DNA from: Caulobacter soli
Lineage (GTDB): Bacteria; Pseudomonadota; Alphaproteobacteria; Caulobacterales; Caulobacteraceae
Assembly: GCF_011045195.1 (NCBI RefSeq)
Contig: NZ_CP049200.1
Coordinates: forward strand, 186,001 to 250,000
Direction: 5' to 3'
DNA: 64,000 bases
Positions 7,704-31,238 of the stretch are shown here, in pieces; position 1 is the stretch's first letter; every line of letters starts with the position of its first letter. The notes under the pieces were generated by a model. It was not told the origin of the DNA and searched no databases. It was given only the letters and a program-made list of their open reading frames with translations. The position numbers and the translations under genes are program-made.

Positions 7704-8366
7704 ATGAGCGCCGAGGACACGACGGCGATAAAGGCGATCTCGGCGTTGCGCGGACTTTTTCCTCCGGCGGTCGCTGTCGCCGCCCGCTCGATCGCGCTCG
7801 ACGCCGACGCACCGGAGGCTATACGGCGTCGGCATCGCAGGAGCGGCCGGCTTTGCGCGGCCGACGCTCTGGCGGTCCTGGCCATCTCGCCAACGCTGAG
7901 AGAACACCCCGCGCCGACCTGGCCATCGGACGCGGCAGGCAGCATCAGCCATTGCGAGGACCTGGCCTGCGCGGTTGCGGCGCAGGCCTCCCAGGTGGTC
8001 GCCCTCGGCGTCGATATCGAAGCGGCCCGCCCCTTGATCGAGGGGGCGGAACTGGTCTGCGGCGACGCGGAACTGGACCACTTCGACACCCTGCCCCCAC
8101 TCCCCGCCGGTAACTGGCCCCTACTGACGTTCTCAGCCAAGGAGGCCTTCTACAAATGCCAGTATGCGGTGACCGGCCGCCTGCTCGACTTCCGCGACTT
8201 CGAGATCCGTTTCGACATTCACGCGCCGGCGACGGGTCGCTTCACTCTGCGGCGAACCCGACCCTTGCCGATCCCCGACCACCTCGACCTGGACATCGAA
8301 GGACGCTGGGCGGCGGATCGTTCGCATGTCTACACCGCCGCCTGGATCACGCGCCCCGCGCCCTGA
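7704..8366 (+). CDS. 4'-phosphopantetheinyl transferase, Sfp/EntD superfamily
   Basis: 220 residues from the ATG at 7704. The family signatures are present: SISHCEDLACAVAA (about residues 80-93), the metal-binding LGVDIE (101-106, with D104 and E106) and FSAKEAFYKCQ (143-153, the W/F-S-x-K-E-A motif). Sfp-type enzymes move phosphopantetheine from CoA to the Ser of carrier-protein domains. The synthetase 245 bases downstream contains one carrier domain (LGGNSL) that needs this activation, which ties the gene to the locus. A longer in-frame TTG start at 7509 is possible, but the extra 65 residues do not look conserved. The ribosome site before 7704 is weak. Confidence 0.85.
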   Translation: MSAEDTTAIKAISALRGLFPPAVAVAARSIALDADAPEAIRRRHRRSGRLCAADALAVLAISPTLREHPAPTWPSDAAGSISHCEDLACAVAAQASQVVALGVDIEAARPLIEGAELVCGDAELDHFDTLPPLPAGNWPLLTFSAKEAFYKCQYAVTGRLLDFRDFEIRFDIHAPATGRFTLRRTRPLPIPDHLDLDIEGRWAADRSHVYTAAWITRPAP

Positions 8367-8611
8367 TCGAACAATTTCGGACCTCATCGTCTCAAGTCCT
8401 CGGATGCGCGCCCGGTTGCCGCACCGCAAAAGCCGATATACCCAAATAGAAATTCCAACGATCAAGCAACCGAACCTCGGTCGCAATCGAAGGATAGAAA
8501 ACTATTCATCGAATACGGGACGCAAGTCGCTGCACGACTTGGCGTGATCGCCTCCGCACAATCGAACGCGGAGATCGACGACGCACGCCAGCCACACAGA
8601 GCAAGGTGATC

Positions 8612-11600
8612 ATGACCATCTTCGCCACCGCTTCCTTCACGTCCGCCCTGGCCGGCGCGCCGCCGCAGGGGACCCTGGCCGCGCTGCTCCTCGCCCAGGC
8701 CGAGGCCGCGCCCCGCGCCGTCGCCCTCATCGAGGGCGAAGCCCGGCTTACGACCAGCGATCTCGTCGATCGCGCCAGCCGCGTCGCCGCCCAGCTGATC
8801 GCCGCGGGCGCGGTCAATGACACGGTCGTGGGCCTGTTCGCCGAGCCGTCGGCCGCCCTGATCACCGGGCTGTGGGGGATCGTGCTGTCTGGCGCGGCCT
8901 ATCTGCCGTTGGCGCCCGACTATCCCGAAGAGCGCCTGCGGCTGATGATCGAGGACAGCCGCCTGCGGATCGTGCTCTGCCAGGCCCGCTTCGCCGCCAC
9001 GGTGGAGACTTTCGCGCCGCCCGGCACGACCGTCGTGGTGATCGAGGACGCCCTGGCCGCCGGCGGCGAGGATTTGTCTCGCCGCGCGCCGGCGCTGTCG
9101 GGCCCGCGCGACCTAGCCTATGTCATCTATACCTCCGGCAGCACCGGCCGCCCCAAGGGGGTGATGATCGAGCAGGCCAGCATCGTAGGGCAACTGCGAT
9201 GGCTGGCGCGCGAACACGGCCTCGTCCCCGGCCAGATCCTTCTGCAAAAGACGCCGATCAGCTTCGACGCGGGCCAGTGGGAGCTTCTGGCCCCGGCCCT
9301 GGGCGTCACCATTGTGGTCGCCCCGCCGGGCGCCCATCGCGATCCCGACCTGCTCATCGACCTGGTGGTCAGCCATGGGGTCACCCTGCTGCAGGTGGTC
9401 CCTACCCTGCTGCGGGCCCTGGTCGAGACCGAGCGACTGGACCGCTGCCACACGCTGGCGCGAGTCTTCAGCGGCGGAGAGGCGCTGTCCAACGGCCTGG
9501 CCCGCGCCACGTTGGACGCCCTGCCCTGGGCCAGCCTGATCAATCTCTACGGCCCGACCGAGTGCACCATCAACAGCTCCAGCTGGCGCGTCGAGCCAAG
9601 CGCCCTCAGCGATCCGGCCGCGTCGGTGAGCATTGGCCGCCCAGTCGCCGATACGACCTACCATGTCCTCGACGCCGACCGCCGGCCCGTGGCGCCCGGC
9701 GCCGTGGGCGAGCTGTGGATCGGCGGCGCGCAGCTGGCGCGGGGCTATCTTCACCGGCCCGACCTGACGGCCGACCGCTTCATCCTCGATCCCTTCCGAC
9801 CGGGCGTCGCCGACGCGCGCCTCTACCGGTCCGGCGACCTGGTCTTCGCCGCGCCCGACGGCGCCGTACAGTTCGTGGGCCGCGCCGACGACCAGGTGAA
9901 GATCCGAGGCTTCCGCATCGAGCTGGATGAGGTGCGCCTTGCCATCGAGGCCCACGACTGGGTCAAGACCGCCGTCGTCGTCGCTCAGGACGACGCTCGC
10001 GGCGACAAGAACCTGATCGCCTATGTCGAACTCAGCCCGCGCGAGGCGGCGCTGATGGACCAGGGCCGGGCCGGCGCTCATCACCAATCCAAGGCCAGCC
10101 GCCTGCAGGTCCGGGCCCAGCTCTCCAATCCCGGCCTCAAGCGCGACGCCGAATTGGACGGCCTCGTCAGCATCGACCTGCCTGGCGACCAGGCCTCTCC
10201 CGCCCAACGCCGCCGCGCCTTCGCCCGCAAGACCTATCGCTTCTTCGAAGGCGGAGCTGCGGCCCTGACCGAGGTCGAGGCGCTGCTGAGGCCCAAACCC
10301 GTCTTGGTCGCACCCCGTGCGCCTGAAGGCGTCTCCTTGTCCGAACTGGGGACTTTGCTGCGCGAGTTTGGCCAGCACCACAGCCCCGAGCGGCTGCTGC
10401 CCAAATACGCCTATGCCTCCCCCGGCGCGCTGTACGCGGTGCAACTGCACCTGGAAATCACAGGCGTGACGGGCCTGGCCGACGGAACCTATTACTACCA
10501 TCCGGTCGATCACCGGCTCGTCCGGGTGGCGAAGGCGACCTCGTCCGCGCCGGGCGTCACGGTGCATCTGGTGGGCCGCCGCCCGGCGATTTCGGCGGTC
10601 TATCGCAGCAACGTCCAGGAGGTCCTGGAATTGGAGGCGGGCCACCTGTTGGGCCTGTTCGACGACGTGCTGGGCGAGCAGGGCCTGGCGATCGGGACGC
10701 CGGCCGAGCACCACCCGGTCGCCGCCGCCCTGACCACCAGCCAAGACGACGTCTATCTGGGCGCGTTCCCCCTGACCTCGCTGGGCGCGCCTGCGCAGGC
10801 GCGGCATCTCGTCGCCCACGTCCAGTCGCTGGACGGACGCCTTGAGGGCCTGACGCCGGGCCAGCATCGGCTGGGCGCCGACGGCGCCTTCGTCCGCGTC
10901 GCCGAGGGCCAGATCGAACGCAAGCACGTCATCGCCATCAACCAGCAGGTCTATGACCGGGCCAGCTTCGGCCTGACCCTGACCAGCGACAACCCGCAAG
11001 CCTGGCTGCGCTACATCGAGCTGGGCCGGTGGCTGCAGCGTCTTCAGCAGAACGGCCTGTCCCTGGGGCTGATGTCGTCGGGCTATTCGTCCAGGACCAG
11101 CGAGGACCTGCCGTCGGCCCGTCGCATCGCCGCCCTGCTGGGCCGCGAGGTCGGCGCCTCCTACTTCTGCGTCGGCGGACGGCTGTCTCAGAGCCAGATC
11201 GACAGCCAGGGCATGAACGAGGACGCCGTGCACATGCAGGGCCCGGCCGAGCTGATCGCCGCCGACCTGCGCCGGCTCCTGCCGCCTTACATGGCCCCCA
11301 GCCGCCTGGTCATCCTCGACGCCCTGCCCTTGACCGCCAACGGCAAGGTCGACCGCAAGGCGCTGGAGGCCCGCCGCGACCTGCTGGGCGGGACCGACGC
11401 CCGTCCGCACGTGGCGCCCCGCACCCCCGGCGAAGAAACGATCGAGGCGATCTGGCGCACGGCCCTCAAACGGGACCAGGTTTCGGTCGAGGACGACTTC
11501 TTCGCCCTGGGCGGCAACTCCCTGACCGCGGTGTCGCTGATCCACCGGATCAACGCGGCCCTCGGCGCGCGACTGAAGCTGCAGGCGCTGTTCGAAGCCC

Positions 11601-12478
11601 CGACGATCGCCGCCCTGGCCCGCAAGGTCGAGGCGGGCGAGGAGCACCAGGCCTCGCGCGCCGCGCCGCTGCGGGCGCATGGGACCGGCCGTCCGGTCTT
11701 CTGCTGGCCGGGCCTGGGCGGCTATCCGATGAACTTGCGCGCGCTGGCCAGGGGCCTCGGCGGCGAGCGTCGGGTCTTCGGCCTGCAGGCGCTGGGGATC
11801 AACGCCGGCGAGGTCCCGCACGGCGACATCCAGGCCATGGCCGCCGCCGATATCGAGACCCTTCGCAAGATCCAGCCCTCGGGCCCCTACACCCTCTGGG
11901 GTTATTCCTTCGGCGCGCGCGTGGCCTTCGAGACCGCCTACCAGCTGGAACAGGCCGGCGAGACGGTGGAGGCCCTGCACCTGATCGCGCCGGGCTCGCC
12001 CAGGCTGGACCTGCCAGCGACGCCCGCCGGCCCGCGCTACGACAATCCCAGCTATCAGGCGATCCTGTTCTCGGTTTACGCCGGCGCCCTGGATCATCCG
12101 GACCTGGCCGCCTGGCAAGTCGAGGTCCGCGACGACGCCAGCCTGGCCGCCTTCGTCTCGGCGCGCTTTGGCCTGGACGCCGACCTGGCCGTGCGCATCG
12201 CCGCCATCGTCCGGGCCACCTACCAGTTCCGCTACAGCTTCGAGGAGCTGGATCGCCGCCGCATCGCCGCGCCTGTCACCCTGATCAAGGCCCGAGGCGA
12301 CGACTACGCCTTCATCGAGGGCGTCAGCGGCTACAGCGCGACGCCGCCCAGGGTGATCGAGCTGGATGTCGACCACTACGCCTTGCTCAAGCCCGATGGC
12401 GTCGCGGCCCTGGCTCGCGCTCTGGCTGAACCTGCCCGCATCGTCCCCATCCCCATACGCGTCGTCGAGGAGGTCTGA
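8612..12478 (+). CDS. indC: Indigoidine-synthetase-type NRPS (A-Ox-T-TE)
   Basis: 1288 residues; ATG at 8612 with AAGG at 8603. Adenylation domain: YVIYTSGSTGRPKGV (about 170), SFDAGQWELL (about 217), LYGPTE (about 312), YRSGDL (about 404), GFRIELDEV (about 432) and the late LTANGKVDRK (about 907). Between the last two motifs about 430 residues are inserted that look like an FMN-dependent SagB-type oxidase (Ox) domain, including DGTYYYHPVDHRLV and LGLMSSGYSSRTSEDLPSARRI. Then come a carrier domain (DDFFALGGNSLTA, Ser near 969) and a thioesterase (GYSFGA near 1096, His in DVDHYALL near 1253). This order and length are those of BpsA/IndC, which cyclise and oxidise L-Gln. Reading the specificity positions against GrsA by eye gives D-A-W-Q-F-G-L-I-N-K, which fits glutamine. 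The product could be indigoidine, or the synthetase could feed a minimycin-like C-nucleoside (see neighbours). Confidence 0.93.
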   Translation: MTIFATASFTSALAGAPPQGTLAALLLAQAEAAPRAVALIEGEARLTTSDLVDRASRVAAQLIAAGAVNDTVVGLFAEPSAALITGLWGIVLSGAAYLPLAPDYPEERLRLMIEDSRLRIVLCQARFAATVETFAPPGTTVVVIEDALAAGGEDLSRRAPALSGPRDLAYVIYTSGSTGRPKGVMIEQASIVGQLRWLAREHGLVPGQILLQKTPISFDAGQWELLAPALGVTIVVAPPGAHRDPDLLIDLVVSHGVTLLQVVPTLLRALVETERLDRCHTLARVFSGGEALSNGLARATLDALPWASLINLYGPTECTINSSSWRVEPSALSDPAASVSIGRPVADTTYHVLDADRRPVAPGAVGELWIGGAQLARGYLHRPDLTADRFILDPFRPGVADARLYRSGDLVFAAPDGAVQFVGRADDQVKIRGFRIELDEVRLAIEAHDWVKTAVVVAQDDARGDKNLIAYVELSPREAALMDQGRAGAHHQSKASRLQVRAQLSNPGLKRDAELDGLVSIDLPGDQASPAQRRRAFARKTYRFFEGGAAALTEVEALLRPKPVLVAPRAPEGVSLSELGTLLREFGQHHSPERLLPKYAYASPGALYAVQLHLEITGVTGLADGTYYYHPVDHRLVRVAKATSSAPGVTVHLVGRRPAISAVYRSNVQEVLELEAGHLLGLFDDVLGEQGLAIGTPAEHHPVAAALTTSQDDVYLGAFPLTSLGAPAQARHLVAHVQSLDGRLEGLTPGQHRLGADGAFVRVAEGQIERKHVIAINQQVYDRASFGLTLTSDNPQAWLRYIELGRWLQRLQQNGLSLGLMSSGYSSRTSEDLPSARRIAALLGREVGASYFCVGGRLSQSQIDSQGMNEDAVHMQGPAELIAADLRRLLPPYMAPSRLVILDALPLTANGKVDRKALEARRDLLGGTDARPHVAPRTPGEETIEAIWRTALKRDQVSVEDDFFALGGNSLTAVSLIHRINAALGARLKLQALFEAPTIAALARKVEAGEEHQASRAAPLRAHGTGRPVFCWPGLGGYPMNLRALARGLGGERRVFGLQALGINAGEVPHGDIQAMAAADIETLRKIQPSGPYTLWGYSFGARVAFETAYQLEQAGETVEALHLIAPGSPRLDLPATPAGPRYDNPSYQAILFSVYAGALDHPDLAAWQVEVRDDASLAAFVSARFGLDADLAVRIAAIVRATYQFRYSFEELDRRRIAAPVTLIKARGDDYAFIEGVSGYSATPPRVIELDVDHYALLKPDGVAALARALAEPARIVPIPIRVVEEV

Positions 12479-12481
12479 CCG

Positions 12482-12715
12482 ATGCCCCACGTCAACATCA
12501 AGCACTTCCCCCGCGACCTCGATCCCGAGGCCCAGAAGGCCCTGGTCGAGGGGCTCGTCGGCTTGATCACCCAGGCGTTCGACGTGAGCGAGACCACCGT
12601 CTCCGTCGCTCTCGAACCCGTGGAGCCCGCAGCCTGGCGCGATCGCGTGGTGCTTCCTGAATTGCACAACCGGTCCGACCTGCTGGCGCGCCGTCCCGCC
12701 TACGACATCGCCTGA
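12482..12715 (+). CDS. 4-oxalocrotonate tautomerase-family enzyme (PptA-like)
   Basis: 77 residues. After Met removal the catalytic N-terminal proline (MPHVNIK) is present. The short beta-alpha-beta fold ([15 protein letters not shown], then [13 protein letters not shown]) resembles PptA/YdcE. It starts 3 bases after the NRPS stop and is followed 11 bases later by the PsuG-like gene, so it is surely cotranscribed. Family members catalyse keto-enol tautomerisation. A role on the unstable aminated glutarimide or oxazine intermediate made by the synthetase is an inference; I do not recall a tautomerase in published indigoidine clusters. Confidence 0.85.
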
Positions 12716-12726
12716 AAGAGGACGCC

Positions 12727-13704
12727 ATGCCCCAGATCGATCCTCAGCGCCTGGCCGAGCGGCTTGTCCTGGCGCCCGAGGTCCACGCCGCGCTGGCGTC
12801 CGGCCGCCCCGTCGTGGCGCTGGAATCCAACGTCATCACCCATGGTCTGCCCTATCCCGACAATGTCGAGACCGCCTTGGCCGTCGAGGCCGCCGTGCGG
12901 GCCGGCGGCGCGGTTCCGGCCACGATCGCCATCGAGGACGGCCACCTGCTGGTGGGCCTGGATCGCGAGACGATCCAGCGCTTCGCCACCGAGCCCGGCA
13001 TCCCCAAGGTGTCCAGCCGCGACCTGCCTTTCGCCCTGGCGCGCGGCGGCAAGGGCGCGACCACCGTCGCCTCGTCTCTGGCCATCGCCGAGCTGGCGGG
13101 CATCGCCGTCTTCGCCTCGGCCGGGATCGGCGGCGTGCATCGCGGCGCGGCCCAGAGCTGGGACGTCTCGGCCGATCTCGTGCAGTTCACCCGCTCGAAG
13201 GTCGCCGTGGTCTGCGCCGGGGCCAAGACGATCCTGGACCTGGGCCTGACCGTCGAGGTGCTGGAGACGCAAGGCGTGCCGCTGGTCACCTACGGCTTCG
13301 ACGAGGTGCCGGCCTTCTATTGCCGCTCCAGCGGCGTGCCGAGCCCGCAGCGTCTTGACGACATGGCCACCATCGCCAGGGCCGTCGACCTGCACTGGGC
13401 CCTGGGCGGAACCGGCGGCGTGCTGGTGGCCGCGCCGATCCCCGAGGCCGACGCCTTGGACGGCGAGGCCATCGAGACGGCCATTCTTGACGCCATCGCC
13501 GCCGCCGAGGCCGAAGGGATAGCCGGCGCGGGCCTGACCAAGCGGCTGATGCGGGCGGTCGACGCGGCCACCGACGGCCGCTCGTCCAGGGCGAACGCCG
13601 CCGTGCTGGTCCACACCGCCCATCTGGGCGGCAGGCTGGCGGCGGCCTATGCGGCCCTGGCGCCCAGCCGGCCGCAACGCGCCGCCGCGGGGGTGCTGGC
13701 CTGA
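12727..13704 (+). CDS. psuG: Pseudouridine-5'-phosphate glycosidase family protein (PsuG / IndA-like)
   Basis: 325 residues, full family length. Conserved blocks: [17 protein letters not shown] (about residue 29, with the catalytic Glu), [28 protein letters not shown] (about 95-120, with Lys), [13 protein letters not shown] (about 160, the Lys that forms a Schiff base with ribose) and the C-terminal [10 protein letters not shown] (Asn). PsuG reversibly cleaves or forms the C-C bond between ribose-5-phosphate and uracil. In indigoidine/minimycin clusters the homologue (IndA/MinB) is thought to join ribose-5-phosphate to the synthetase-derived heterocycle. Its place in this operon and the absence of a PsuK kinase argue for that biosynthetic role rather than pseudouridine breakdown. 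Confidence 0.9.
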
Positions 13705-14900
13705 TGAGCGCTAACGTCGTCGAGGCGCTGCTGGCCGACCGCGCCTACCACATCGAATTCAACGGCCATCTGACCAACCACGCCAAGCACGCGGTCGTCG
13801 CCCTGGCCGGCCTGGGGGCCGCGCCCGAGCAGGTGCGGGCCTATTACGAGAACTACGCCCGGCTGACGACCTACGGCTACGGCCTGGAGCCGGCCCGCAC
13901 ATCGGACCTGGTGGTCACCCGCGAGACCTGGCGAGACTTCCTGGGCCGGCGGCGGGGCTTTTCGGCCCTGTGCGCCTTCTTCGACGCCGAGGCGCAACGC
14001 CTGGGCCTGGACGGCGTGGTGGCGATCTACGGCCCCGAACTCCTGACCGGTTGGATCGGCGCCTTCACCCACGCCACCATCCACCTGGGCTGGGCGCTGG
14101 ACGCCGGCGGCCGCTGGATGGCGATCGAAGGCTTGGCCTACATGGTCTTCACCCACGTCCCGGCCCATGCCGAGCGCGCCGCGCCCGACCCGGCCGCCGC
14201 CGCCGACGCATCGCCCCATGACAGCCTGCTGCGGATCGCCCGGACCTGGCATGCCGATCCGTCGGTGGCGCAACAGGTGCAGGCGGCCCTGGCCGACACC
14301 GCCTCGCCCGCCGCCCGCGCGATCCATCCGGAACTGGCGCGCTCGGGTCTGCAATACCGCATCGCCCGCAGCGCCGCCCAGGGCCACCCGCTGATCTACG
14401 GCCTGGCGCCCTGGGCGTCGCGCCCGCCGCAAGCCGAGGACTGGGAGGCGCTGTTCGAGGCCGTCACCCTGCTCTATCTGGCCTTCCCCGGCGACTTCGT
14501 GCTGCTGCACCTGATCACCGCCCTGCACGCGGTGGAGACCATCGCCGCGCGCCTGGCGCCGACGGAGGCCCTCGCCGCCTACCAGGGCTACTGGGTCGGG
14601 GCGCTGGGCGTGGCTTTCGGCGAGAAGCTGATCCCCAAGCCGGAAAAGCTGGAGGCCCTGGCCAAGGCCCTTCAGGGACGCGACGACCTGGAAAGTCCCG
14701 AGCGGGCCGCCGATTGGCGCGCGACCATCGATCGCGCCGTGCTGGAGGAGGAGGAGCACAATCCCAAGCTCGCCTACGTCCTGCAAAAGCTGTGGCGACG
14801 ATCCGGCGGGCGGACGCTCTATCGCGTCGCCGCGGCCCAGTTCACCAAGACCCCGCTTCTGCCCCCCAGCTTCGAGCAGCCGGCCGACGACGAGGCCTGA
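13704..14900 (+). CDS. DUF4243 / questin oxidase-like protein
   Basis: 398 residues. It starts with an ATG sharing its A with the TGA of the preceding gene (TGATG), so it is translationally coupled. The family N-terminus is recognisable: YHIEFNGHLTNHAKHAVVALAGLGA (His- and Asn-rich), then YYENYARLTTYGYGLEPA. Histidines recur through the protein (GAFTHATIHLGWALDAG, LLHLITALHAVETI), consistent with a His-rich oxygenase fold. Fungal questin oxidase is the named family member; the bacterial reaction is not established in my knowledge. In Streptomyces minimycin-type clusters I recall a DUF4243 domain, partly fused to a HAD phosphatase; here it stands alone. Likely role: oxidative remodelling of the ring or of the C-nucleoside. 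Confidence 0.82.
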   Translation: MSANVVEALLADRAYHIEFNGHLTNHAKHAVVALAGLGAAPEQVRAYYENYARLTTYGYGLEPARTSDLVVTRETWRDFLGRRRGFSALCAFFDAEAQRLGLDGVVAIYGPELLTGWIGAFTHATIHLGWALDAGGRWMAIEGLAYMVFTHVPAHAERAAPDPAAAADASPHDSLLRIARTWHADPSVAQQVQAALADTASPAARAIHPELARSGLQYRIARSAAQGHPLIYGLAPWASRPPQAEDWEALFEAVTLLYLAFPGDFVLLHLITALHAVETIAARLAPTEALAAYQGYWVGALGVAFGEKLIPKPEKLEALAKALQGRDDLESPERAADWRATIDRAVLEEEEHNPKLAYVLQKLWRRSGGRTLYRVAAAQFTKTPLLPPSFEQPADDEA

Positions 14901-14911
14901 AGGAGACCGCC

Positions 14912-15595
14912 ATGCCCCTGGATCAAGCGCCCGTCTTGTCCCGTCCGTCGATCGAGGCGGGCCTTCTGGTGTTGCCCCAGACACGGCAGCTGCGCGCCCT
15001 CCATACGGTCGTCCGCGACCGCACCGCCTCGCGCGCCGCCTTCGTGCACTACAGCGGCCGCATCATCCGCCTGCTGCTGGAAAACGCCCTGGGCCTGCTG
15101 CCGCTGGAGCCCAAGACCGTCGAGACGCCCGTCGGCCGCACATACGAGGGCCTGGCCTTCGCCGAGCACATCTGCGGGGTGTCGGTGATCCGAGCCGGCG
15201 AGAGCATGGAAGGCGAGCTGCGCGCCATCATTCCCGGCGTGCGTATCGGCAAGATCCTGATCCAGCGCGACAAGGTCACCAAGGCGCCGCGCTTCTACTA
15301 CCAGAACCTGCCGGCCGACATCGCCGACCGCCAGGTGCTGCTTCTGGACCCCATGCTGGCCACCGGCGGCACCGCCCTGGCGGCGGTCGAGCTGCTGCTG
15401 CAACAGGGCGTGCTCGAGGAGAACATCGTGTTCGTGGCGTTCATCGCCGCGCCTGAAGGCGTGGCGGCCCTGGCCGGCCGATACCCCAAACTGCGGATCG
15501 TCACGTCGGCGATCGAGGAGCGGCTGAACGAAAACGCCTACATGCTGCCGGGCATCGGCGATTTCGGCGACCGCTACTTCGGCTCGCCCGCCTGA
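14912..15595 (+). CDS. upp: Uracil phosphoribosyltransferase
   Basis: 227 residues. The ATG at 14912 has a strong AAGGAG at 14900-14905; longer in-frame readings lie inside the upstream gene. The PRPP-binding motif is seen in VLLLDPMLATGGTALAAVE (about residues 143-161). The C-terminal uracil-binding GIGDFGDRYFG is also present. The enzyme makes UMP from uracil and PRPP. As last gene of the synthetase operon it matches MinD of the minimycin cluster, for which raising the UMP pool was described as self-resistance against the toxic nucleotide analogue. It could also simply salvage uracil; a second housekeeping upp elsewhere in the genome would favour the resistance role. Confidence 0.9.
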   Translation: MPLDQAPVLSRPSIEAGLLVLPQTRQLRALHTVVRDRTASRAAFVHYSGRIIRLLLENALGLLPLEPKTVETPVGRTYEGLAFAEHICGVSVIRAGESMEGELRAIIPGVRIGKILIQRDKVTKAPRFYYQNLPADIADRQVLLLDPMLATGGTALAAVELLLQQGVLEENIVFVAFIAAPEGVAALAGRYPKLRIVTSAIEERLNENAYMLPGIGDFGDRYFGSPA

Positions 15596-16047
15596 GCCGC
15601 CGGCGCCCGGCGCAGTCGCCGCGGCGCGTTCGGAGTGTTGGCCAGCCAGATCCCGGCGACAATCAGGCCCGCCCCGGCCAAGCGCACCAGGGTGCGTCCA
15701 TCGATGGCCGCGCCGAGATTGCTGATCACCACGCCGGTCAGCATCTGGGCGCCGACCACCAGGCCGGCGGTGCGGCTGGCGCCCAGCCGAACCACCACAT
15801 GGCTGTTGAGCGCCACGAAGGCTACGCCGAGCACGCCGCCGATCCAGGCGAACCAGGGCGCCGGGCCGACGTGAAAGGCTCCGACGCCTTGCAGCGCCAT
15901 CGGAGCCGACAGGAAGACAAAGCCCACGACGTGGTTCCAAAGCGAGGCCCTCAAGGGACCGTCGCGACGCCCCAGGTGGCCGTTGACGGCGCGGCTGAGG
16001 CCGATGCACAAGCCGTTGGACAGGGCCAGAAGGACGGCGGTCAGCAT
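15574..16047 (-). CDS. Half-size DMT transporter (DUF606/YdcZ), subunit 2
   Basis: 157 residues with five membrane helices and the DUF606 N-terminus (LLALSNGLCIGLSRAVNGHLG, typical G/N-rich helix 1, then LWNHVVGFVFLS). Such five-helix proteins are half a drug/metabolite transporter and often come as unlike pairs. Here the partner lies 1 base upstream. The 3' end overlaps the convergent uracil phosphoribosyltransferase gene by 22 bases. The context suggests export of the product of the synthetase operon (MinT-like role), which is an inference. Confidence 0.82.
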   Translation of the reverse strand: MLTAVLLALSNGLCIGLSRAVNGHLGRRDGPLRASLWNHVVGFVFLSAPMALQGVGAFHVGPAPWFAWIGGVLGVAFVALNSHVVVRLGASRTAGLVVGAQMLTGVVISNLGAAIDGRTLVRLAGAGLIVAGIWLANTPNAPRRLRRAPAAQAGEPK

Positions 16048-16048
16048 G

Positions 16049-16519
16049 TCAGCCCGCCGCCGCGATGATGACGAGGCTGCCGGTCAGCACCAGTCCCAGT
16101 CCCAGCAATCCGCCGGTCGTGGGCGCGCGCCGCTCCAGACCCAGCCAGCCGAACCGATCGGCCGCGACGCCGAACAGCATCTGTCCGGCCAGCATCAGGG
16201 CCAGGGTTCCCGAAAAGCCCAGCGGCCCGTTGACGGTGATCGCCGCCAGCAGGACCGTTAGGGCGCCGGGCACGCCGCCCAGATAGATCCAGCGCGGCCA
16301 GCGTCCGCCGGCAGGCGCCGGAACCGAGACCGGCCTGGAGCGAGCCCAGACCAGCACCGCGGTCAGCGCCACGACGGCGCCGACGCCGTGGGCGATCCAG
16401 GACGCGAAAAGGGGTGTCGAGAAGTGCGCCAGCCGGCTGTTGAAGGCGATCATCGTGGCCAGCACAACGCCGGCCAGCAGGGCCAGGACGGTTTCGGAGG
16501 CGACGGGCTTAGGCACCAA
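16049..16519 (-). CDS. Half-size DMT transporter (DUF606/YdcZ), subunit 1
   Basis: 156 residues, five hydrophobic segments, same family as the next gene (LALLAGVVLATMIAFNSRLAHF, then FASWIAHGVGAVVALTAVLV). The start overlaps the end of the HD hydrolase gene by 11 bases, so HD, subunit 1 and subunit 2 form one minus-strand operon. The tandem, diverged pair probably makes an antiparallel heterodimer in the inner membrane. Confidence 0.82.
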   Translation of the reverse strand: MVPKPVASETVLALLAGVVLATMIAFNSRLAHFSTPLFASWIAHGVGAVVALTAVLVWARSRPVSVPAPAGGRWPRWIYLGGVPGALTVLLAAITVNGPLGFSGTLALMLAGQMLFGVAADRFGWLGLERRAPTTGGLLGLGLVLTGSLVIIAAAG

Positions 16520-17087
16520 ACAGCCCCTCCTGACGCGCGACCGCTAGCCGCGCCTCGATATGCGTCCAGAGGCGGGGGCACCCTCGGCGGATCGGCTCGG
16601 CGACGCGCGCCACCACGCGCTCGTGGCTGATGCCGTTCTCGCGCCAGCTCTGGCCGTTGTTGGCGAGATTCAGCAGCACCGGCATGGCTCGGTCGATGGC
16701 GTGGGCGAAGCGCGCCTCCGGCGTCTCCTCGTCCTCGAACTCGTCCCAGAGCGCCACCAGCGCCTGGGCCTGGGTTTCCGGCAGGACGCCGAAGATCCGC
16801 TCCACGGCCCGCCGCTCGGCCGCCTTGCGCTCGGAAAGGCCGGTCTCGACAAAGGCCATGACGTCGCCGGTGTCGATCTCGCCCACGTCGTGCACCAACA
16901 GCAGCGACACCACGCGCGGCAGGTCCACCGGCTGGGCGGCGTAGGGCTGCAGGGCCGCCGCCGCCAGGGCGATCTGCCAGCTATGCTCGGCCGGGTTCTC
17001 GTAACGATCGAGGCCCAGGGGTTTGACCTTGCGGGTCACGCCCTTGAGCTTGTCCAGTTCGAGGATGAATCCGATCACGTCGTCCAT
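16509..17087 (-). CDS. HD-domain phosphohydrolase (YfbR-like 5'-nucleotidase)
   Basis: 192 residues. The metal ligands of the HD superfamily are clear: H35 in PAEHSWQ, H66-D67 in LLVHDVGEIDTGD with the YfbR-type E70 and D72, and a later Asp in AHAIDRAMP. YfbR-like members dephosphorylate nucleoside 5'-monophosphates. It is first in the operon with the two exporter halves, facing the synthetase operon. I infer that it removes the 5'-phosphate from the C-nucleoside product, the job done in Streptomyces by the HAD phosphatase domain of MinC, which is missing here. Confidence 0.85.
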   Translation of the reverse strand: MDDVIGFILELDKLKGVTRKVKPLGLDRYENPAEHSWQIALAAAALQPYAAQPVDLPRVVSLLLVHDVGEIDTGDVMAFVETGLSERKAAERRAVERIFGVLPETQAQALVALWDEFEDEETPEARFAHAIDRAMPVLLNLANNGQSWRENGISHERVVARVAEPIRRGCPRLWTHIEARLAVARQEGLFGA

Positions 17088-17164
17088 GGCGTCCTCGCGC
17101 GGCGAGGCTCGATCATCGGCCCTGTCCGCCCTTCGGCGGAAGACCGACCGTGGTCCACAAAGAG

Positions 17165-17205
17165 CGGACGTGATCGTCCGAAGTCATGGCCCACCGCAAT
17201 TGCGG
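17165..17205. promoter_or_regulatory. Two palindromes in the HD|LysR divergent promoter region
   Basis: CGGACG-TGAT-CGTCCG (17165-17180) and CCGCAATTGCGG (17194-17205, a perfect 12-bp palindrome) lie between the HD/DMT operon (minus) and the LysR gene (plus). They are the best candidates for binding sites of the LysR protein encoded at 17324, which would then control the export/nucleotidase operon. The evidence is symmetry and position only. Confidence 0.45.
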
Positions 17206-17323
17206 AGGCAGCATTGGCGCAACGCAATCTTGTGTTGAGTAAACGTCACTTGTCTCCGCGCCCGCGACTGCGTCTCTAATGCCTGCGAGGGCCGTCGCAG
17301 ACAGTCGCAGCAAGGACCCCCGC

Positions 17324-18241
17324 GTGGACAATTTCGGCCAGTTGAACGTCTTCATCCAGGCCGCCGAGACCCGCAACTTCACCTTGGCGGGACGCAATCT
17401 CGGCATTTCGTCGTCGGGCGTCGGCAAGGCCGTCGCCAGGCTGGAGGAGCGCCTGGGGGTCAGGCTCTTTCATCGCAGCACACGCTCGATCGCCCTGACG
17501 CCGGAGGGGGAGCTGTTCCTGGAGCGTTGCCAACGCATCCAGGGCGAGATCGCCCAGGCCGAGGCCGAGCTGACCGAAGGCCAGGGCGCTCCACGCGGCC
17601 GCCTGCGGGTCAGCTTGCCGCTGGTGGGCATGCTGATGATGCCGGCCCTGACCGGCTTCATGCGGGCCTATCCGTCCGTCGAGCTCGACCTGGATTTCAC
17701 CGACCGCATCGTCGACCTGATCAACGAAGGCTTCGACGTGGTGGTGCGCACCGGCGACGCCAGCGACTCCCAGTTGATCACCCGCACCCTGGGCGCCTTC
17801 GGCCACCTGCTGGTCGGCGCCCCGGCCTATTTCGAACGCAACGGCCTGCCCCAGATTCCCGAGGACCTGGCGTCCCACGCCTGCCTGCACCACAAATACC
17901 CCGCCACCGGCAAGCTGGCCCCCTGGCGCCTGCTTCGCGACAACGTCGAACTGACGCTCGAGCTTCCCCGCAGCGTGGTCGCCAGCACAATCGAGCCTCT
18001 GGTGCATATGGCCGAACAAGGCATGGGGGTGGCCTGCCTGCCCGACTACGCCGTCCACGCCCAGCTTCGCGACGGGCGCCTGGTCTCGGTGCTGGACGCG
18101 CATGTCGCCCATCGCGGGGTCTTCCGGGCGCTGTGGCCGCAGAGCCGCTTCAACTCGCCCAAGGTCAAGCTGTTTGTCGACTTCCTGGCCGGCGCCCTGC
18201 TGCCCGTGCAGCCGGCCCCCCAACGTCTCAGCGCCGCATAG
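17324..18241 (+). CDS. LysR-family transcriptional regulator (DmlR/YhjC-like)
   Basis: The helix-turn-helix is at the N-terminus (FGQLNVFIQAAETRNFTLAGRNLGISSSGVGKAVARLEERLGVRLFHR), followed by the effector domain (RLRVSLPLVGMLMMPAL onward). The GTG at 17324 (VDNFGQL) has AAGGA at 17312 and gives 305 residues of normal family layout; an ATG at 17279 would add 15 unconserved residues. The gene is divergent from the HD/DMT operon and upstream, same strand, of the LLM monooxygenase, so it may control either side. A short dyad, GCGGAC-N6-GTCCGC at 18241-18258, follows its stop. Confidence 0.87.
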   Translation: MDNFGQLNVFIQAAETRNFTLAGRNLGISSSGVGKAVARLEERLGVRLFHRSTRSIALTPEGELFLERCQRIQGEIAQAEAELTEGQGAPRGRLRVSLPLVGMLMMPALTGFMRAYPSVELDLDFTDRIVDLINEGFDVVVRTGDASDSQLITRTLGAFGHLLVGAPAYFERNGLPQIPEDLASHACLHHKYPATGKLAPWRLLRDNVELTLELPRSVVASTIEPLVHMAEQGMGVACLPDYAVHAQLRDGRLVSVLDAHVAHRGVFRALWPQSRFNSPKVKLFVDFLAGALLPVQPAPQRLSAA

Positions 18242-18344
18242 CGGACCAATCTGTCCGCAATAACCGGACGACTACCGGGATTATCGACCGACCGGGCGAC
18301 GCCTAGGGTCCGCCTCCCCCATCCGGGGACGGCAAGGAGATCCG

Positions 18345-19703
18345 ATGCGCCGGCGCGGCGAGACCATGATCCTGGGACTGTTCGTGCATCCTGCCGGCCA
18401 CCACGTGGCCGCCTGGCGCGATCCGGCCGCCTGGACGTTGCGCCAGTTGCACGAGCACGTCGCCCTGGCCCGGATGGCCGAGGCGGCCGGCCTTGACCTC
18501 TACTTCCTCGCCGACTTCGTTGAGGTGCAGCTGGAGTCGATCGAGGCCGCCGGCCGCAAGGCCCACAACGGCGTCTACGGCTTCGAGCCGCTGACCCTGC
18601 TGTCGGCCCTGGCCGCGACGACCCGCAGCATCGGCCTGGTCGCCACCGCCTCGACCAGTTTTTCGGACCCGTATGTTCTGGCGCGCCAGGTCGCCTCGCT
18701 CGACCATCTCAGCGGCGGACGAGCCGGCTGGAACGCGGTGACCTCGGCCGATCCGGGCGCGGCCTTCAACTTCGGACACCAAAGCCCCCTGCCCCACGCC
18801 GCGCGCTACGCCCGCGCCCAGGAGTTCGTCGACGTCGCCCAGGGCCTTTGGGACAGTTGGGACGACGACGCCTTCGTCGAGGATCGCGCCACGGGCCGGT
18901 TCTTCGATCCCGCCGGCTTGCGCCGCCTCGACCATGTCGGCGACCATTTCCGGGTGCGCGGTCCGCTGAACATTCCCCGGCCTCCACAAGGCCGGCCGAT
19001 CGTCGTGCAGGCCGGAAGCTCCGAAGCCGGCAAGGCCCTGGCCGCTCGCACGGCCGACCTGGTCTTCACCGCCCAGTCCAGTCCCGCGACCGCGACGGCC
19101 TTCTACGCCGACCTGAAGGGCCGCTTGCCCGCCCACGGCCGGCGGCCCGGCGATCTCAAGATCCTGCCCGGCCTCGTGCCGATCGTCGCCGCCACTCGCG
19201 CGGAGGCCCAGACCAAGCTGGAAAAACTGCAGGTCCTGGTCGATCCCGTGGTCGGCCTGGACCTCCTGCGCAACCTTTCGGGCGGCGCACCGCTGCCCCC
19301 GCTGGATCTCGACGCGCCCCTGCCGCCGCGCCCGCCCTCGGAGACCGCCCAAGGCCGCCAGTCCCTGGTGCTGGACCTGGCCCGGCGCGAGGGCCTGAAC
19401 GTGCGCGAGCTTTATCTGCGCCTGGCCCCAGGACGCGGCCACGGGCAGGTCGTCGGCGATCCAGGGGATGTGGCCGACGCCATGCAGCATCTGTTCGAGA
19501 CCCACGGCTGCGACGGCTTCAACCTGATGCCGGCGGTGCTGCCCGGCGGCCTGACGGACTTCATCGACCTGGTGCTGCCCGAACTGGCGCGCCGAGGACT
19601 GGTTGGCGAGCGCCCCGACGGCGTCACGCTGCGTGAACGGCTGGGCCTAGCCCGCCCGGCCTGGCCACGGGACGAAACGAAGGCGCGCAGCGCCGCGTCT
19701 TGA
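18345..19703 (+). CDS. LLM-class FMN-dependent monooxygenase (NtaA/SnaA/DmoA family)
   Basis: 452 residues; ATG at 18345 behind AAGGAG. Family hallmarks: ILGLFVHPAGHHVAAWRDP at the N-terminus, YFLADFVEVQ, FEPLTLLSALAATTRSIGLVATASTSFSDPYVLARQVASLDHLSGGRAGWNAVTS (about residues 85-135) and RPIVVQAGSSEAGKALAART. These are TIM-barrel, flavin-using oxygenases that work with a separate FMN reductase and attack nitrilotriacetate, dimethyl sulfide, dibenzothiophene sulfones or similar. It heads a run with a TonB receptor, an MDR oxidoreductase and an SsuA-like binding protein, which suggests scavenging of an organosulfur or amine compound. The substrate is not identifiable from sequence. Confidence 0.9.
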   Translation: MRRRGETMILGLFVHPAGHHVAAWRDPAAWTLRQLHEHVALARMAEAAGLDLYFLADFVEVQLESIEAAGRKAHNGVYGFEPLTLLSALAATTRSIGLVATASTSFSDPYVLARQVASLDHLSGGRAGWNAVTSADPGAAFNFGHQSPLPHAARYARAQEFVDVAQGLWDSWDDDAFVEDRATGRFFDPAGLRRLDHVGDHFRVRGPLNIPRPPQGRPIVVQAGSSEAGKALAARTADLVFTAQSSPATATAFYADLKGRLPAHGRRPGDLKILPGLVPIVAATRAEAQTKLEKLQVLVDPVVGLDLLRNLSGGAPLPPLDLDAPLPPRPPSETAQGRQSLVLDLARREGLNVRELYLRLAPGRGHGQVVGDPGDVADAMQHLFETHGCDGFNLMPAVLPGGLTDFIDLVLPELARRGLVGERPDGVTLRERLGLARPAWPRDETKARSAAS

Positions 19704-19783
19704 CCCGTCCACGCCTTCCATATTGCCCTCCCGCTGCGACGCGCCGGGAGCCAAAACGCGTGCCTGAAGATCAATAATTCCTT

Positions 19784-19797
19784 GTTATTTCAATAAC
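19784..19797. promoter_or_regulatory. Palindrome GTTATT-TC-AATAAC upstream of TonB receptor
   Basis: A perfect 6-bp inverted repeat sits in an AT-rich patch (about 19770-19805) about 78 bases before the receptor start, in DNA otherwise very GC-rich. Candidate operator or promoter core; the binding factor is unknown. Confidence 0.4.
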
Positions 19798-19874
19798 TTA
19801 TATTTCTCATCCTCGTTTGCTTCCTGCGCTGCCGCATGGAATTCCCCTGGACCGCAAGCAGTACGGGGGATCCT

Positions 19875-22181
19875 ATGCGACACATCCAAGCGCCGGCGCA
19901 TATGCGCCTGAAGCTCCGCCTCGCCGCCGGCGCGGCTATGGCCCTGGTGGGCCTTTCCGCGACCCAAGCGGCCGACACGCTCGCGCCGGACTCGGCCGAC
20001 GCCTCGACCACCGAGGTCGACAGGGTTCTCGTCACCGCCGCGCGCCAGGCCGAGCGCAAGGCGGCCCTCGCCCAGAGCGACCCGGCCTCGATCTCGGTGC
20101 TGACCGCCGAGCGCCTGGACCAGCGCGGCGTGGCCAGCACGCTGGACCTCGTCAACCTGACCCCCAACCTCTACCAGCCGCGCAACACCATGAGCTATTC
20201 GGCCGCCCAGTACTTCCTGCGCGGCATCGGCGAGCTGGACGCCCAGGGCGAACCCTCGGTCGGCACCTTCGTCGACGGCGTCTACATCACCCGCAATCTG
20301 GGGGCGATGCAGGAGCTGCTGGACATCGCCGACATCCAGATCGACCGGGGCCCGGTCATCCATCTGGGCCACCAGGTGGAAGGCGGCGCGGTGCGGCTGA
20401 CCACCGTGGTCCCCGACAACCAGGTCCGGCGCGAACTGCTGGCCGGCTATGGCTCGTTCGACGAGGTCAAGCTGGGCGGCCTGATCAGCGGCCCGCTCGT
20501 GGAGGACAAGGTCTATGGCAGCTTCGCCATCAGCCGCCACCAGCGCGACGGGATCGACGTCAACCGCACCCTGAACCGGCGCGAGAACAACATCGCCCTC
20601 ACCCAGGCCCGGGCCAAGCTGCGGTTCACGCCGACGGCGGACCTGGACTTCACCCTGGCGGTGGACGGCGCGGCCGATGACAGCCTCAACCGCGGCTACG
20701 GCGACCTGCGCAACGCCGACCAGTTCGGCCTCTACTCGCCGATCTATCCGAAGAACCGCTACCGCCAGGCCGGGGTGACGGCGACCACGCTCTATCGCCT
20801 CTCGCCCGCCTACCAGCTGTCCAGCGTCACGGCCTGGCGAGTGTTCGAGGACCACGCCAACTACGACAACACCGGCGACCGCTTCGCCCGCAATTCCTCG
20901 CCCCTGCGCTATTACGACAACGCCTGGTCCCAGGACCTGAAGCTGACGGGGACTACGGGCAAGGCCCATGTCGTGGCCGGGGTCTACCTGCTTTACGAGG
21001 ACTGGATCACGCGGCGCAACGTCAACGCCTCGACCACCTTTTCCGGCACGCCCAACCGGATCGTCTTCACCCCGGTCAACGCCGCCATCGACCAGAAGAC
21101 CTACAACGCCGCGGCCTATCTCCAGACCGACTACGAGGTCTCCCCGCGCCTGAGCGTGACGGCGGGCCTGCGCTACAATCTCGAGCGCCACACCACCGAG
21201 CAGACGCTGAGCTGGCTGATCGCCGGCGGCGACCACACCATCACCGTCACGGACGTCTCGCAGGTCGCCGACGAGTTGAACATCCTCTACGGCTCGCCGG
21301 CCGCGCAGGCCTGGCATGTGAAGGCTCACAAGAGCTGGACACAGTTGCTGCCGCGCCTGTCGGCGACGTTCCAGGCCGCGCCGGGCGTCAAGGCCTACGC
21401 CTCGATCAGCCAAGGCGCCAAGTCGGGCGGTTTCGACTTCCGGGCCAACAGTCCCGGCAATTCGCGGCAAGCCACGACGCCCTACGCGCCCGAGAAGGTC
21501 ACCACCTACGAGGCGGGCGTGAAGAGTGATTTTTCCGGCGGCCGGGTGCGCCTGAACGGCGCGGTGTTCTGGAACGACTTCAAGGACATCCAGATCAGCG
21601 CCTATGATCCGTTGACGGCGATGAGCCGGCGCTTCAACGCCGGCGACGGTCACTCGGTCGGGATCGAGCTGGAGGCCGCCGCCCAGGTGACCGCCGCCTG
21701 GAGCCTGGACGCCACCGCCTCCTGGCTGGACACCGAACTGGACACCTATCGCGGAACCTACAGCCAGATCGTGCTGGCCGGCGGCGACGTCTTGCCGACC
21801 GCCGCCCACTCAGGTTCGCCCCTGCCCAACGCTCCGAAGTTCCAGGGCCGGATCGCCAGCGACTACCGTTTGCCTGTGAGCCTCCCCGGCGAACTGTCGC
21901 TGGGCGTCGACCTCTCCTATCAGGGCTCAACCTTCCTGACCTCGGCCGCCAGCCGCTACAACCGCATGCCGCCGCAAACGACGCTGGACGCGGCCCTGCG
22001 CTGGAAGAGCCCCGATGGAACCTGGCGGGCGGCGTTGCGCGGCCGCAACCTGCTGAACCGCCGCTACCTGGTCTGGTCGGGCCTGGGGACCACGAACGGG
22101 ACGCCGGCCTATCCCACCTTCTACTCGGCCAGCTGGACCGACCCGCGCACCGTCTATCTCGAGGTTCGCCACAGCTTCTGA
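19875..22181 (+). CDS. TonB-dependent outer-membrane receptor with atypical plug
   Basis: 768 residues from the ATG at 19875 (MRHIQAP), with a GGGGGA ribosome site. There is a signal peptide (LRLAAGAAMALVGLSATQA), a TonB-box region (VDRVLVTAARQAERK), the plug, a beta barrel and a terminal aromatic residue (YLEVRHSF). Barrel repeats such as KAYASISQGAKSGGFDFR and TTYEAGVKSDFSGGRVRLNGAVFWNDFKDIQ are typical. The usual plug motif (GPQGTLYGRNTxGGA) is replaced here by RGPVIHLGHQVEGGAVRL, about residue 155. The barrel belongs to the group often annotated as vitamin B12/ferric type but is found with many substrates. It follows the LLM monooxygenase and precedes an oxidoreductase, so its ligand is probably the substrate of those enzymes. 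Confidence 0.9.
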   Translation: MRHIQAPAHMRLKLRLAAGAAMALVGLSATQAADTLAPDSADASTTEVDRVLVTAARQAERKAALAQSDPASISVLTAERLDQRGVASTLDLVNLTPNLYQPRNTMSYSAAQYFLRGIGELDAQGEPSVGTFVDGVYITRNLGAMQELLDIADIQIDRGPVIHLGHQVEGGAVRLTTVVPDNQVRRELLAGYGSFDEVKLGGLISGPLVEDKVYGSFAISRHQRDGIDVNRTLNRRENNIALTQARAKLRFTPTADLDFTLAVDGAADDSLNRGYGDLRNADQFGLYSPIYPKNRYRQAGVTATTLYRLSPAYQLSSVTAWRVFEDHANYDNTGDRFARNSSPLRYYDNAWSQDLKLTGTTGKAHVVAGVYLLYEDWITRRNVNASTTFSGTPNRIVFTPVNAAIDQKTYNAAAYLQTDYEVSPRLSVTAGLRYNLERHTTEQTLSWLIAGGDHTITVTDVSQVADELNILYGSPAAQAWHVKAHKSWTQLLPRLSATFQAAPGVKAYASISQGAKSGGFDFRANSPGNSRQATTPYAPEKVTTYEAGVKSDFSGGRVRLNGAVFWNDFKDIQISAYDPLTAMSRRFNAGDGHSVGIELEAAAQVTAAWSLDATASWLDTELDTYRGTYSQIVLAGGDVLPTAAHSGSPLPNAPKFQGRIASDYRLPVSLPGELSLGVDLSYQGSTFLTSAASRYNRMPPQTTLDAALRWKSPDGTWRAALRGRNLLNRRYLVWSGLGTTNGTPAYPTFYSASWTDPRTVYLEVRHSF

Positions 22182-22227
22182 CGCGCTCCCGAACGATCCA
22201 TCCCCCGACATCCCAAGAAGACCCGCC

Positions 22228-23232
22228 ATGACCTCGAAACACCGCATCGCCCGAGAGGTGCACATCGTCCGCCGCCCCGACGGCCCCCTGAGCGCCGATG
22301 ACTTCGTCGTCGCCGAACAGCCCTTGGCCGATCTCGCGCCGGGCGAGTTCCTGATCGCCAACCGGCTGCTGTCGATCGATCCGGTCCGGCGGGTGTTCTT
22401 CGCCAACGGAACCGCGCCGCTGAACGCGGGCCTGCACAGCTTCGCGATCGGCCAGGTGCTGGAGTCGCGCCATCCCGACTACGCGCCCGGCGAGATCGTC
22501 GGCCACTATCGGGGCCTGCGCGACCTGGCCATCGGCCGGGGCGAGGAGACTCGAAAGATCCCGGTCGGCGAGGATCCGCTGGAATGGCACATGGGCCCGC
22601 TCGGGGTCGGGGGCTTCTTCGCCTATGTCGGCCTGATCGAGGCGGCCCGCGTCCGCCCCGGCGAAAGCGTACTGGTCTCCTCGGCCGCCGGCTCGGTAGG
22701 AAGCCTGGCCGCGCAGCTGGCCCGGCTGATCGGCTGTCGGGTGGTGGCGACGGTCGGCTCCCCCGACAAGCAGGCCTGGCTGACCGACGTGGCCGGGGTG
22801 GAGAGGGTGATCGACTACAAGCGCGGCGATTGGCGCGAACGTCTGGCCGCGGCCCTCCCCGATGGCCTGGACGTCTACTTCGACAATGTTGGCGGCGCCC
22901 AGCTGGACGCGGCCCTGTCGCTGATCAACCCCCATGGCCGGGTCGCGGTCTGCGGCATGGTCTCGACCTATGACAGCGTCGCCCCCTTCTCGGAGCGGGC
23001 CGGCGCCTGGACCTGGCGGATGATGACATCCCAGGTGGAGCTGAAATCCTATCATGTGCGCGACCATCAGCGGCTGTGGCCCGCCTTCCAGCGCAGCGTC
23101 GGCGACTGGCTGCGCAGCGGCGCAATCAGAACGGAGACTCAGGTGCTCGACAGCCTGGAGGCGGTCCCCCAGGCGTTCGTCGACCTGATCGCCGGCAAGG
23201 GGCTGGGCAAGACCGTGGTGCGCCTGTCATGA
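22228..23232 (+). CDS. Zinc-free MDR oxidoreductase (NADP-dependent, prostaglandin/alkenal reductase type)
   Basis: 334 residues. An N-terminal GroES-like part (FVVAEQPLADLAPGEFLIANRLLSIDPVRR) is followed by the nucleotide-binding Rossmann domain (VLVSSAAGSVGSLAAQLARLIGCRVVATVGS, about residues 149-180). VDVYFDNVGGAQLDAAL-type sequence is the usual MDR signature for this CurA/leukotriene-B4-dehydrogenase branch. No zinc cysteines are seen. It reduces activated C=C or carbonyl bonds with NADPH. It overlaps the next gene by 4 bases (ATGA). Confidence 0.88.
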   Translation: MTSKHRIAREVHIVRRPDGPLSADDFVVAEQPLADLAPGEFLIANRLLSIDPVRRVFFANGTAPLNAGLHSFAIGQVLESRHPDYAPGEIVGHYRGLRDLAIGRGEETRKIPVGEDPLEWHMGPLGVGGFFAYVGLIEAARVRPGESVLVSSAAGSVGSLAAQLARLIGCRVVATVGSPDKQAWLTDVAGVERVIDYKRGDWRERLAAALPDGLDVYFDNVGGAQLDAALSLINPHGRVAVCGMVSTYDSVAPFSERAGAWTWRMMTSQVELKSYHVRDHQRLWPAFQRSVGDWLRSGAIRTETQVLDSLEAVPQAFVDLIAGKGLGKTVVRLS

Positions 23233-24155: not shown

Positions 24156-24320
24156 GCTGTCTCAAATCTGCAGCCGCGGGCCGGCGGACGAGACTGCGCC
24201 ACTAGCCGACTCTCAGATCGCGCCAGAAACACGACCTTGGCCCCGGCGCTGCAAAAGCGATGAAATATCCAAGTCAGACGTTGCAACCGTTGATGCAAGC
24301 TTCTTTGCGCGCGGTCTTAA

Positions 24321-24959: not shown

Positions 24960-25079
24960 ACTCTTCGCGCCCTTCCGCCCGCAAGCTCGCTTAAAACTAC
25001 GCTACAGCATCACAGAGCCGAGATTCCGCTCAAGGCGCAGCCGGTCTCGCACAGGGGATTGGTCGGCCCGAGAACAGAG

Positions 25080-28524: not shown

Positions 28525-28789
28525 CCAACCCCCAGCGCTGGAAGTGGTAGAGCTTCAATTAGGGGATGCAAGAAAAATCAACCGCACGCATCACGGGGAA
28601 AAGACACGACGGGTCGCTCCTGACGCTACGGATCAGGCCCATCCGCCAAGCCTAAATCACCGGTCGAACGGGCCAAACTCAATTTGGCATTGGCCAGGTC
28701 AATACCCTCTCCCGTAAGCTGCGCCATACCCCTATATGTTGCAACAAAGCTTACCTGCCCGACTAAGGCGACCCGCAACGAGAACCCCG

Positions 28790-29488: not shown

Positions 29489-29491
29489 GGC

Positions 29492-30946: not shown

Positions 30947-30949
30947 TCA

Positions 30950-31210: not shown

Positions 31211-31238
31211 TCCTGTCCCTCGCTTCGCCATGCAGCAT

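Follow-up and report, generated by a model that had tools for sequence, protein, structure and literature searches.

The 64,000 nt stretch of the Caulobacter soli genome analysed here (the window; positions 186001-250000 of contig C2) contains a gene cluster that, judging from its sequence, is in good probability responsible for the synthesis of minimycin (oxazinomycin) or a closely similar C-nucleoside, with an HD-domain protein as the last phosphatase. The cluster extends from a phosphopantetheinyl transferase (PPTase) gene beginning at 7704 to the start of the HD-domain gene at 17087. Its reading as a minimycin-type cluster, which had been put forward in a preliminary description of the same DNA, is supported by the gene set and by the clade to which its C-glycosidase belongs. 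Gene families were assigned through Pfam matches above the Pfam cut-offs in a domain scan of ten genes between 6498 and 17087, the adjacent LysR gene being scanned separately; every gene that the preliminary description had named was recovered in place, and the only cluster gene it had missed encodes a tautomerase of 77 aa.

The plus strand carries, in order, an Sfp-type PPTase (7704-8366; 4PPT_N, 5e-12, and ACPS, 2.6e-12); a single-module adenylation-oxidation-thiolation-thioesterase (A-Ox-T-TE) synthetase of the MinA/BpsA/IgiD type, 1290 aa long (8606-12478; AMP-binding, PP-binding and Thioesterase); the PptA-like tautomerase, Tau (12482-12715; Tautomerase, 5.7e-6); a C-glycosidase of the biosynthetic MinB/IndA type (12727-13704; Indigoidine_A, 9.8e-109); a DUF4243, or questin-oxidase-type, protein equivalent to the C-terminal half of MinC and predicted to be an iron oxygenase (13704-14900; Questin_oxidase, 4.7e-38); and a second, MinD-like uracil phosphoribosyltransferase (UPRT; 14912-15595; UPRTase, 1.9e-76). 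Encoded on the minus strand are an HD-domain hydrolase of the HD_3/YfbR-like kind, proposed to be a nucleotide monophosphatase (16509-17087; HD_3, 6.3e-46), and the subunits b (16049-16519; DMT_YdcZ, 1.2e-27) and a (15574-16047; DMT_YdcZ, 5.7e-25) of a YdcZ-type DMT exporter, with gene ends that overlap or almost touch. The two operons are convergent, as previously described, the last plus-strand gene ending at 15595 and the minus-strand operon at 15574. A LysR-type regulator (17279-18241, plus strand; HTH_1 and LysR_substrate) is divergent from the HD-exporter operon. A promoter scan revealed no sigma-70-like site, and terminator-like sites numbered five against 3.5 expected, from which we draw nothing.

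According to the excerpted text of a review, the min cluster of Streptomyces hygroscopicus JCM 4712 encodes MinA, Tau, MinB, MinC (a HAD domain joined to DUF4243), MinD and MinT (PMC8724604). The A-Ox-T-TE synthetase, tautomerase, C-glycosynthase, DUF4243 oxidase and UPRT are common to min and the Caulobacter cluster. The gene-by-gene correspondence that had been suggested holds for MinA, Tau, MinB, the DUF4243 half of MinC and MinD, but fails for the HAD half of MinC, where Caulobacter has the HD protein instead. Unlike min, the Caulobacter cluster has Tau as a separate gene, a stand-alone DUF4243 protein and its own PPTase, and has its exporter and phosphatase genes on the opposite strand, in an operon accompanied by the LysR gene; the exporter is a YdcZ pair, which can be compared with MinT by name only, as the excerpted review text does not give the type of the latter. 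A min-form locus of S. hygroscopicus ATCC 21589 (L020) comprises a 1395 aa synthetase plus Tau, a 317 aa MinB, 626 aa HAD plus DUF4243 frames and a UPRT; over the best segments, identity to these is 51% for the synthetase, 46% for Tau, 68% for IndA, 51% for DUF4243 and 71% for the UPRT.

Scanning genome contigs with a DUF4243 alignment yielded 66 loci, in 54 of which the synthetase, IndA and DUF4243 occur together, which speaks against a chance association of the genes. The hosts of these full loci, by their tree labels, include Actinomycetota, Pseudomonadota and a cyanobacterium. Four loci were incomplete: L028 is a short contig without a synthetase, no IndA was found in L034, L060 has the synthetase, tautomerase and DUF4243 only, and L064 has matches to DUF4243, UPRT, YdcZ and HAD, some of them broken. 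DUF4243 was found alone in eight loci (L032, L035, L037, L041, L047, L055, L061 and L067), some of which are short contigs; relatives lacking the other cluster genes come from a Nitrosomonas bin (L032), Photorhabdus heterorhabditis (L035), a Chloroflexi bin (L037) and a proteobacterial bin (L047). Within the genus, the cluster is present in three of 75 genomes, namely the source, Caulobacter sp. D5 and C. vibrioides T5M6, and the Ox part of the synthetase was likewise found in three of the 75.

The same synthetase type is used by pigment clusters, so the locus could instead be an indigoidine cluster in which the glycosidase, oxidase and UPRT merely modify or detoxify by-products. The Leisingera and Rhizobium loci examined have a synthetase and tautomerase and none of IndA, DUF4243 and UPRT, and related myxobacterial clusters, some with a discrete tautomerase, are presented as indigoidine clusters in the excerpted text of a published study (PMC12766979). 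However, IndA, DUF4243 and a phosphatase recur with the synthetase in all 54 full loci, and the UPRT in 48 of them, whilst in min a single synthetase feeds both minimycin and indigoidine, as the review excerpt has it (PMC8724604); we therefore consider a pigment-only cluster very improbable. The Roseobacter igi cluster has, in the excerpted description, a synthetase followed by a tautomerase, together with genes for a dehydrogenase, an arylmalonate-decarboxylase-like protein, an MFS/CynX protein and a TetR regulator (PMC5014874). The igi locus examined has the same succession of synthetase and tautomerase as that found here, but unlike the Caulobacter cluster it is without IndA, DUF4243 and UPRT. 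Conversely, no igiB dehydrogenase, igiC decarboxylase-like, igiE MFS/CynX or igiR TetR gene is present among the ten genes between 6498 and 17087 or as the LysR gene, and a pigment-only igi identity was rejected because the gene sets do not match.

The C-glycosidase might have been a housekeeping PsuG. A tree of 86 sequences was built from 53 cluster proteins, 32 from other loci and the C-glycosynthase AlnA, omitting three cluster fragments shorter than 200 aa (L033, L058 and L063) and six sequences that repeated Caulobacter loci; the 'housekeeping' sequences are those from a genome search rather than from DUF4243 loci, and of the 34 genomes of the class with PF04227, loci were taken from 30, the window's own included. 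One branch, supported at 100/100, splits the 53 cluster glycosidases and AlnA from the 32 other sequences, which include E. coli PsuG and two Caulobacteraceae proteins. The window's protein groups with two other Caulobacter cluster proteins and then with three Streptomyces cluster proteins (96/86), so it is separate from housekeeping PsuG; that identity was discarded, the protein lying across the 100/100 branch from the E. coli and other alphaproteobacterial enzymes. The residues at E. coli positions E31, K93, D149, K166 and N289, in what we take to be the PsuG numbering, are conserved. Position 130 is serine in 53/53 cluster sequences and threonine in 32/32 of the others and in AlnA; as a feature of the alignment, this Ser/Thr difference may serve in genome mining to mark biosynthetic as opposed to degradative C-glycosidases. 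The genome has no PF04227 match besides the cluster glycosidase, and only five of 390 genomes of the family have one, three of these being the cluster copies.

The Ox part of the synthetase has no Pfam match and was recognised through alignment to relatives. The specificity code reads DAWQFGLINK, identical in 41 of 62 aligned sequences; the code positions, and glutamine as the substrate to which this code corresponds, are our assumption. Ser972 of the T domain and Ser1101 of the TE domain are present in 62/62 of the aligned sequences, and the TE histidine and the near-invariant Ox residues of relatives are retained. At the sequence level, then, the synthetase keeps the features expected of one with a functional Ox domain. 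The synthetase tree was of a quick kind and carried a long-branch warning, and no donor lineage was derived from it. Searching plasmid records with the synthetase gave 2678 matches, of which five from the best 20 were examined, two of the five being without annotation. The proposed activator of the synthetase is the cluster PPTase, which a search of its own genome showed to be the only gene of the ACPS fold apart from one reading as AcpS; a linked PPTase was found among the 54 full loci in both Caulobacter loci and an Erwinia bin only. Tau matches PRK01271 at 7.7e-21 and 74.4 bits, under that model's cut-off of 83; a Tau is found in 53 of the 54 full clusters and is fused to the synthetase in 15.

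The DUF4243 protein aligns with the fold of the questin-oxidase-type iron oxygenases BTG13, AflY and PaD, and OzmD is presumably also a non-heme iron oxygenase. Its metal-site residues are aligned and invariant, in an alignment that is partly non-significant by itself and against BTG13 ligands that are in part assumed by us, the BTG13 mutants H58F and T299V being known from the titles of Protein Data Bank (PDB) entries. A protein search scored 7992 candidates and found 388, and single proteins joining DUF4243 to UPRT, HAD or YdcZ (P0049, P0079 and P0089, from other sources) are among the best 120 of these 388 that were listed; such joining supports one shared pathway. PF14027 occurs in four of the 390 family genomes: besides the window's own genome, these are two further members of the genus and a genome whose protein is distant (27% identity).

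The most marked departure from other clusters is the phosphatase. A HAD phosphatase is present in 52/52 full loci outside Caulobacter and the HD protein in none of the 52, and both other Caulobacter full loci resemble the window in having the HD protein and no HAD. The HAD phosphatase forming the N-terminal half of MinC is absent from the window's cluster genes and from both other Caulobacter loci, and a profile built from relatives P0121-P0240 of the HD protein found that protein, across 71 loci examined, in the two Caulobacter loci only. Loci having the YdcZ pair (for example those of Streptomyces griseocarneus, Zooshikella, Photorhabdus and some Nonomuraea) share the genes of the Caulobacter cluster including the pair; they differ in having a HAD gene directly upstream of it (in 19 of the 26 such full loci outside Caulobacter), in carrying the genes found on one strand, and in the lack of a detected linked PPTase. 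In both Caulobacter loci this slot upstream of the pair is occupied by the HD gene; in the window, this gene runs into the beginning of its exporter neighbour (16509 versus 16519). Residues H35, H66, D67, E70 and D132 are invariant in 27 aligned relatives, and there is a weaker, YfbR-like match (8.3e-10). The gene called a nucleotidase in the preliminary description is real, its function being deduced from the HD_3 and weaker YfbR-like matches, and the HD protein would have taken over the dephosphorylation step.

Alternatively, the HD gene may be a mere neighbour of the cluster, with a general HAD phosphatase performing the last step. There are 3982 HD_3 relatives at E <= 0.001, the best 120 of the 3982 being at least 69% identical; a general HAD at 34% identity is present in the genome; and a further genome, G205, has a fragment of the HD gene beside a LysR gene without the cluster. 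Set against this, the orthologues at 89% identity are confined to the genus genomes with the cluster (three of 75, including the source), and of the remaining 72 only two gave any match, weak or partial (36% and 68% over 41 residues); the HD gene overlaps an exporter gene and takes the HAD slot; and the fragment in G205 is what loss of the cluster could have left behind. We therefore regard an uninvolved HD protein as the less probable option, though one to be kept in mind. A product that is a C-nucleoside but not minimycin, arising for example from a different last phosphatase or from one acting at another stage, is unlikely. The HAD domain of the 52/52 other full clusters is indeed missing here, and gene sets vary: the S. 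lavendulae CCM 3239 locus (L112), with IndA, UPRT, tautomerase, EamA transporter, alkene reductase and ribose-phosphate diphosphokinase, has neither DUF4243 nor HAD, and perhaps makes another C-nucleoside. Nevertheless, the ring and the C-C bond are determined by the DUF4243 and MinB-type enzymes, and neither of these conserved enzymes is missing.

A number of observations weigh against a minimycin cluster ending in an HD phosphatase. The DUF4243 metal ligands depend on the partly weak alignment described above, and the presence of DUF4243 next to a synthetase does not prove that a C-nucleoside is made, as the Streptomyces loci L060 (about 3.4-11.2 kb) and L114 (about 7.9-16 kb) have a synthetase, tautomerase and DUF4243 with no IndA, HAD or UPRT in the stretch covered; there, DUF4243 may act on a product other than a C-nucleoside. 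The YdcZ genes are absent from 26 of the 54 full loci, and in seven of the 26 non-Caulobacter loci with the pair the HAD gene is not directly upstream of it. Among PDB sequences, the HD protein matches 3kh1 (a 'predicted metal-dependent phosphohydrolase'), HDDC2 and YfbR, the last of which we take to be specific for 2'-deoxynucleotides, whereas minimycin monophosphate is a ribonucleotide. Finally, the HAD domain of MinC finds four matches in the genome itself; the best, at 34% identity and E 2.3e-21, lies on the other contig, and a general HAD of this kind could do the last step. A weak match to the HAD half of MinC (25% identity, E 8.6e-9) is also seen in the window at 30509-30934 on the plus strand, about 13 kb from the cluster and beyond the block shared with other Caulobacter genomes.

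Besides the cluster UPRT the genome has another, on contig C1, and the two are 36% identical; the best segments of the cluster enzyme share 61-74% identity with their counterparts in Streptomyces cluster loci. Self-protection in min is attributed, in the review excerpt, to a phosphatase, a transporter and a UPRT (PMC8724604). The two other Caulobacter loci have the LysR gene at the corresponding position, 90-92% identical; from this conservation across three genomes and the divergent arrangement we would guess that it controls the HD-exporter operon.

Gene content, domain make-up, family placement, co-occurrence and position were computed here, the order of steps and the logic of self-protection come from the excerpted min review (PMC8724604), and the product, the HD activity and the regulation we infer. 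In the proposed pathway, the PPTase would charge the synthetase, which would activate L-glutamine, oxidise it and release a cyclised intermediate that either couples to give blue indigoidine or is tautomerised by Tau. The IndA/MinB-type enzyme would then link the intermediate to ribose 5-phosphate via a C-C bond, and the DUF4243 oxygenase would rebuild the ring to an oxazine. The resulting monophosphate would be dephosphorylated by the HD protein, rather than by the HAD domain of MinC, and then exported, the overlapping HD and YdcZ genes probably forming one operon under the divergent LysR regulator, whilst the second UPRT may support the UMP pool against the toxic analogue.

The cluster lies in a 16.4 kb block common to two other Caulobacter genomes at 82-83% DNA identity by blastn, shared with Caulobacter sp. 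D5 at 7752-24155 (82.9%; the longer alignment, with locus L002) and with T5M6 at 7938-24115 (81.6%). Over flanks of about 7-18 kb on each side, blastn gave no match between corresponding sides in the three genomes, although short matches exist between non-corresponding flanks. The right part of the block (17279-24155) encodes the LysR protein, a luciferase-like monooxygenase, a TonB receptor, a zinc dehydrogenase and an NMT1-like binding protein, and is found with the cluster in the three Caulobacter genomes and without it in G205. There, the stretch equivalent to 17152-24155 (82%) adjoins the HD fragment (83 bases at 89%; residues 15-67 at 62%) and no PF14027 match was found in the genome, which fits loss of the cluster. 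Directly after the block, G+C falls from about 0.70 to 0.57-0.65 (24001-32000), possibly a separate insertion; a protein there (25080-27116, minus strand) has a weak AAA_23 match. The source genome comprises two contigs totalling 5.68 Mb, of which C2 is 420,517 bases long. As the genome's sole match to the PF10134 (RPA) replication initiator is at 278801-279499 of C2, which also has a stretch marginally above the ParB family cut-off, this contig, on which the window lies, is probably a plasmid or second replicon. We hold it to be evenly balanced whether, in Caulobacter, an unrelated HD phosphatase acting on a C-ribonucleotide replaced HAD and joined the exporter pair in a LysR-controlled 'dephosphorylate and export' operon, within a 16.4 kb unit mobile between unrelated sites and here on a 420 kb plasmid.

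The minimycin cluster type is already known; excerpts of published work report an antiSMASH call of minimycin in Burkholderia gladioli (PMC12702040) and minimycins among the predicted products of Photorhabdus (PMC11194217). In literature searches of limited scope no description of minimycin in Caulobacter was found, in agreement with the earlier remark that no such cluster had been described in Caulobacteraceae; one paper matching both indigoidine and Caulobacter states, in the part seen, that its bacteria lack non-ribosomal peptide synthetase genes (PMC10008586). What is new is the Caulobacter form, with HD in place of HAD. With it, Caulobacter joins the bacteria likely to make a C-nucleoside antibiotic that is known mainly from Streptomyces. 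This form is also a natural test case for which phosphatase such a pathway requires, and it draws attention to an HD-domain protein whose substrate may be a C-ribonucleotide.
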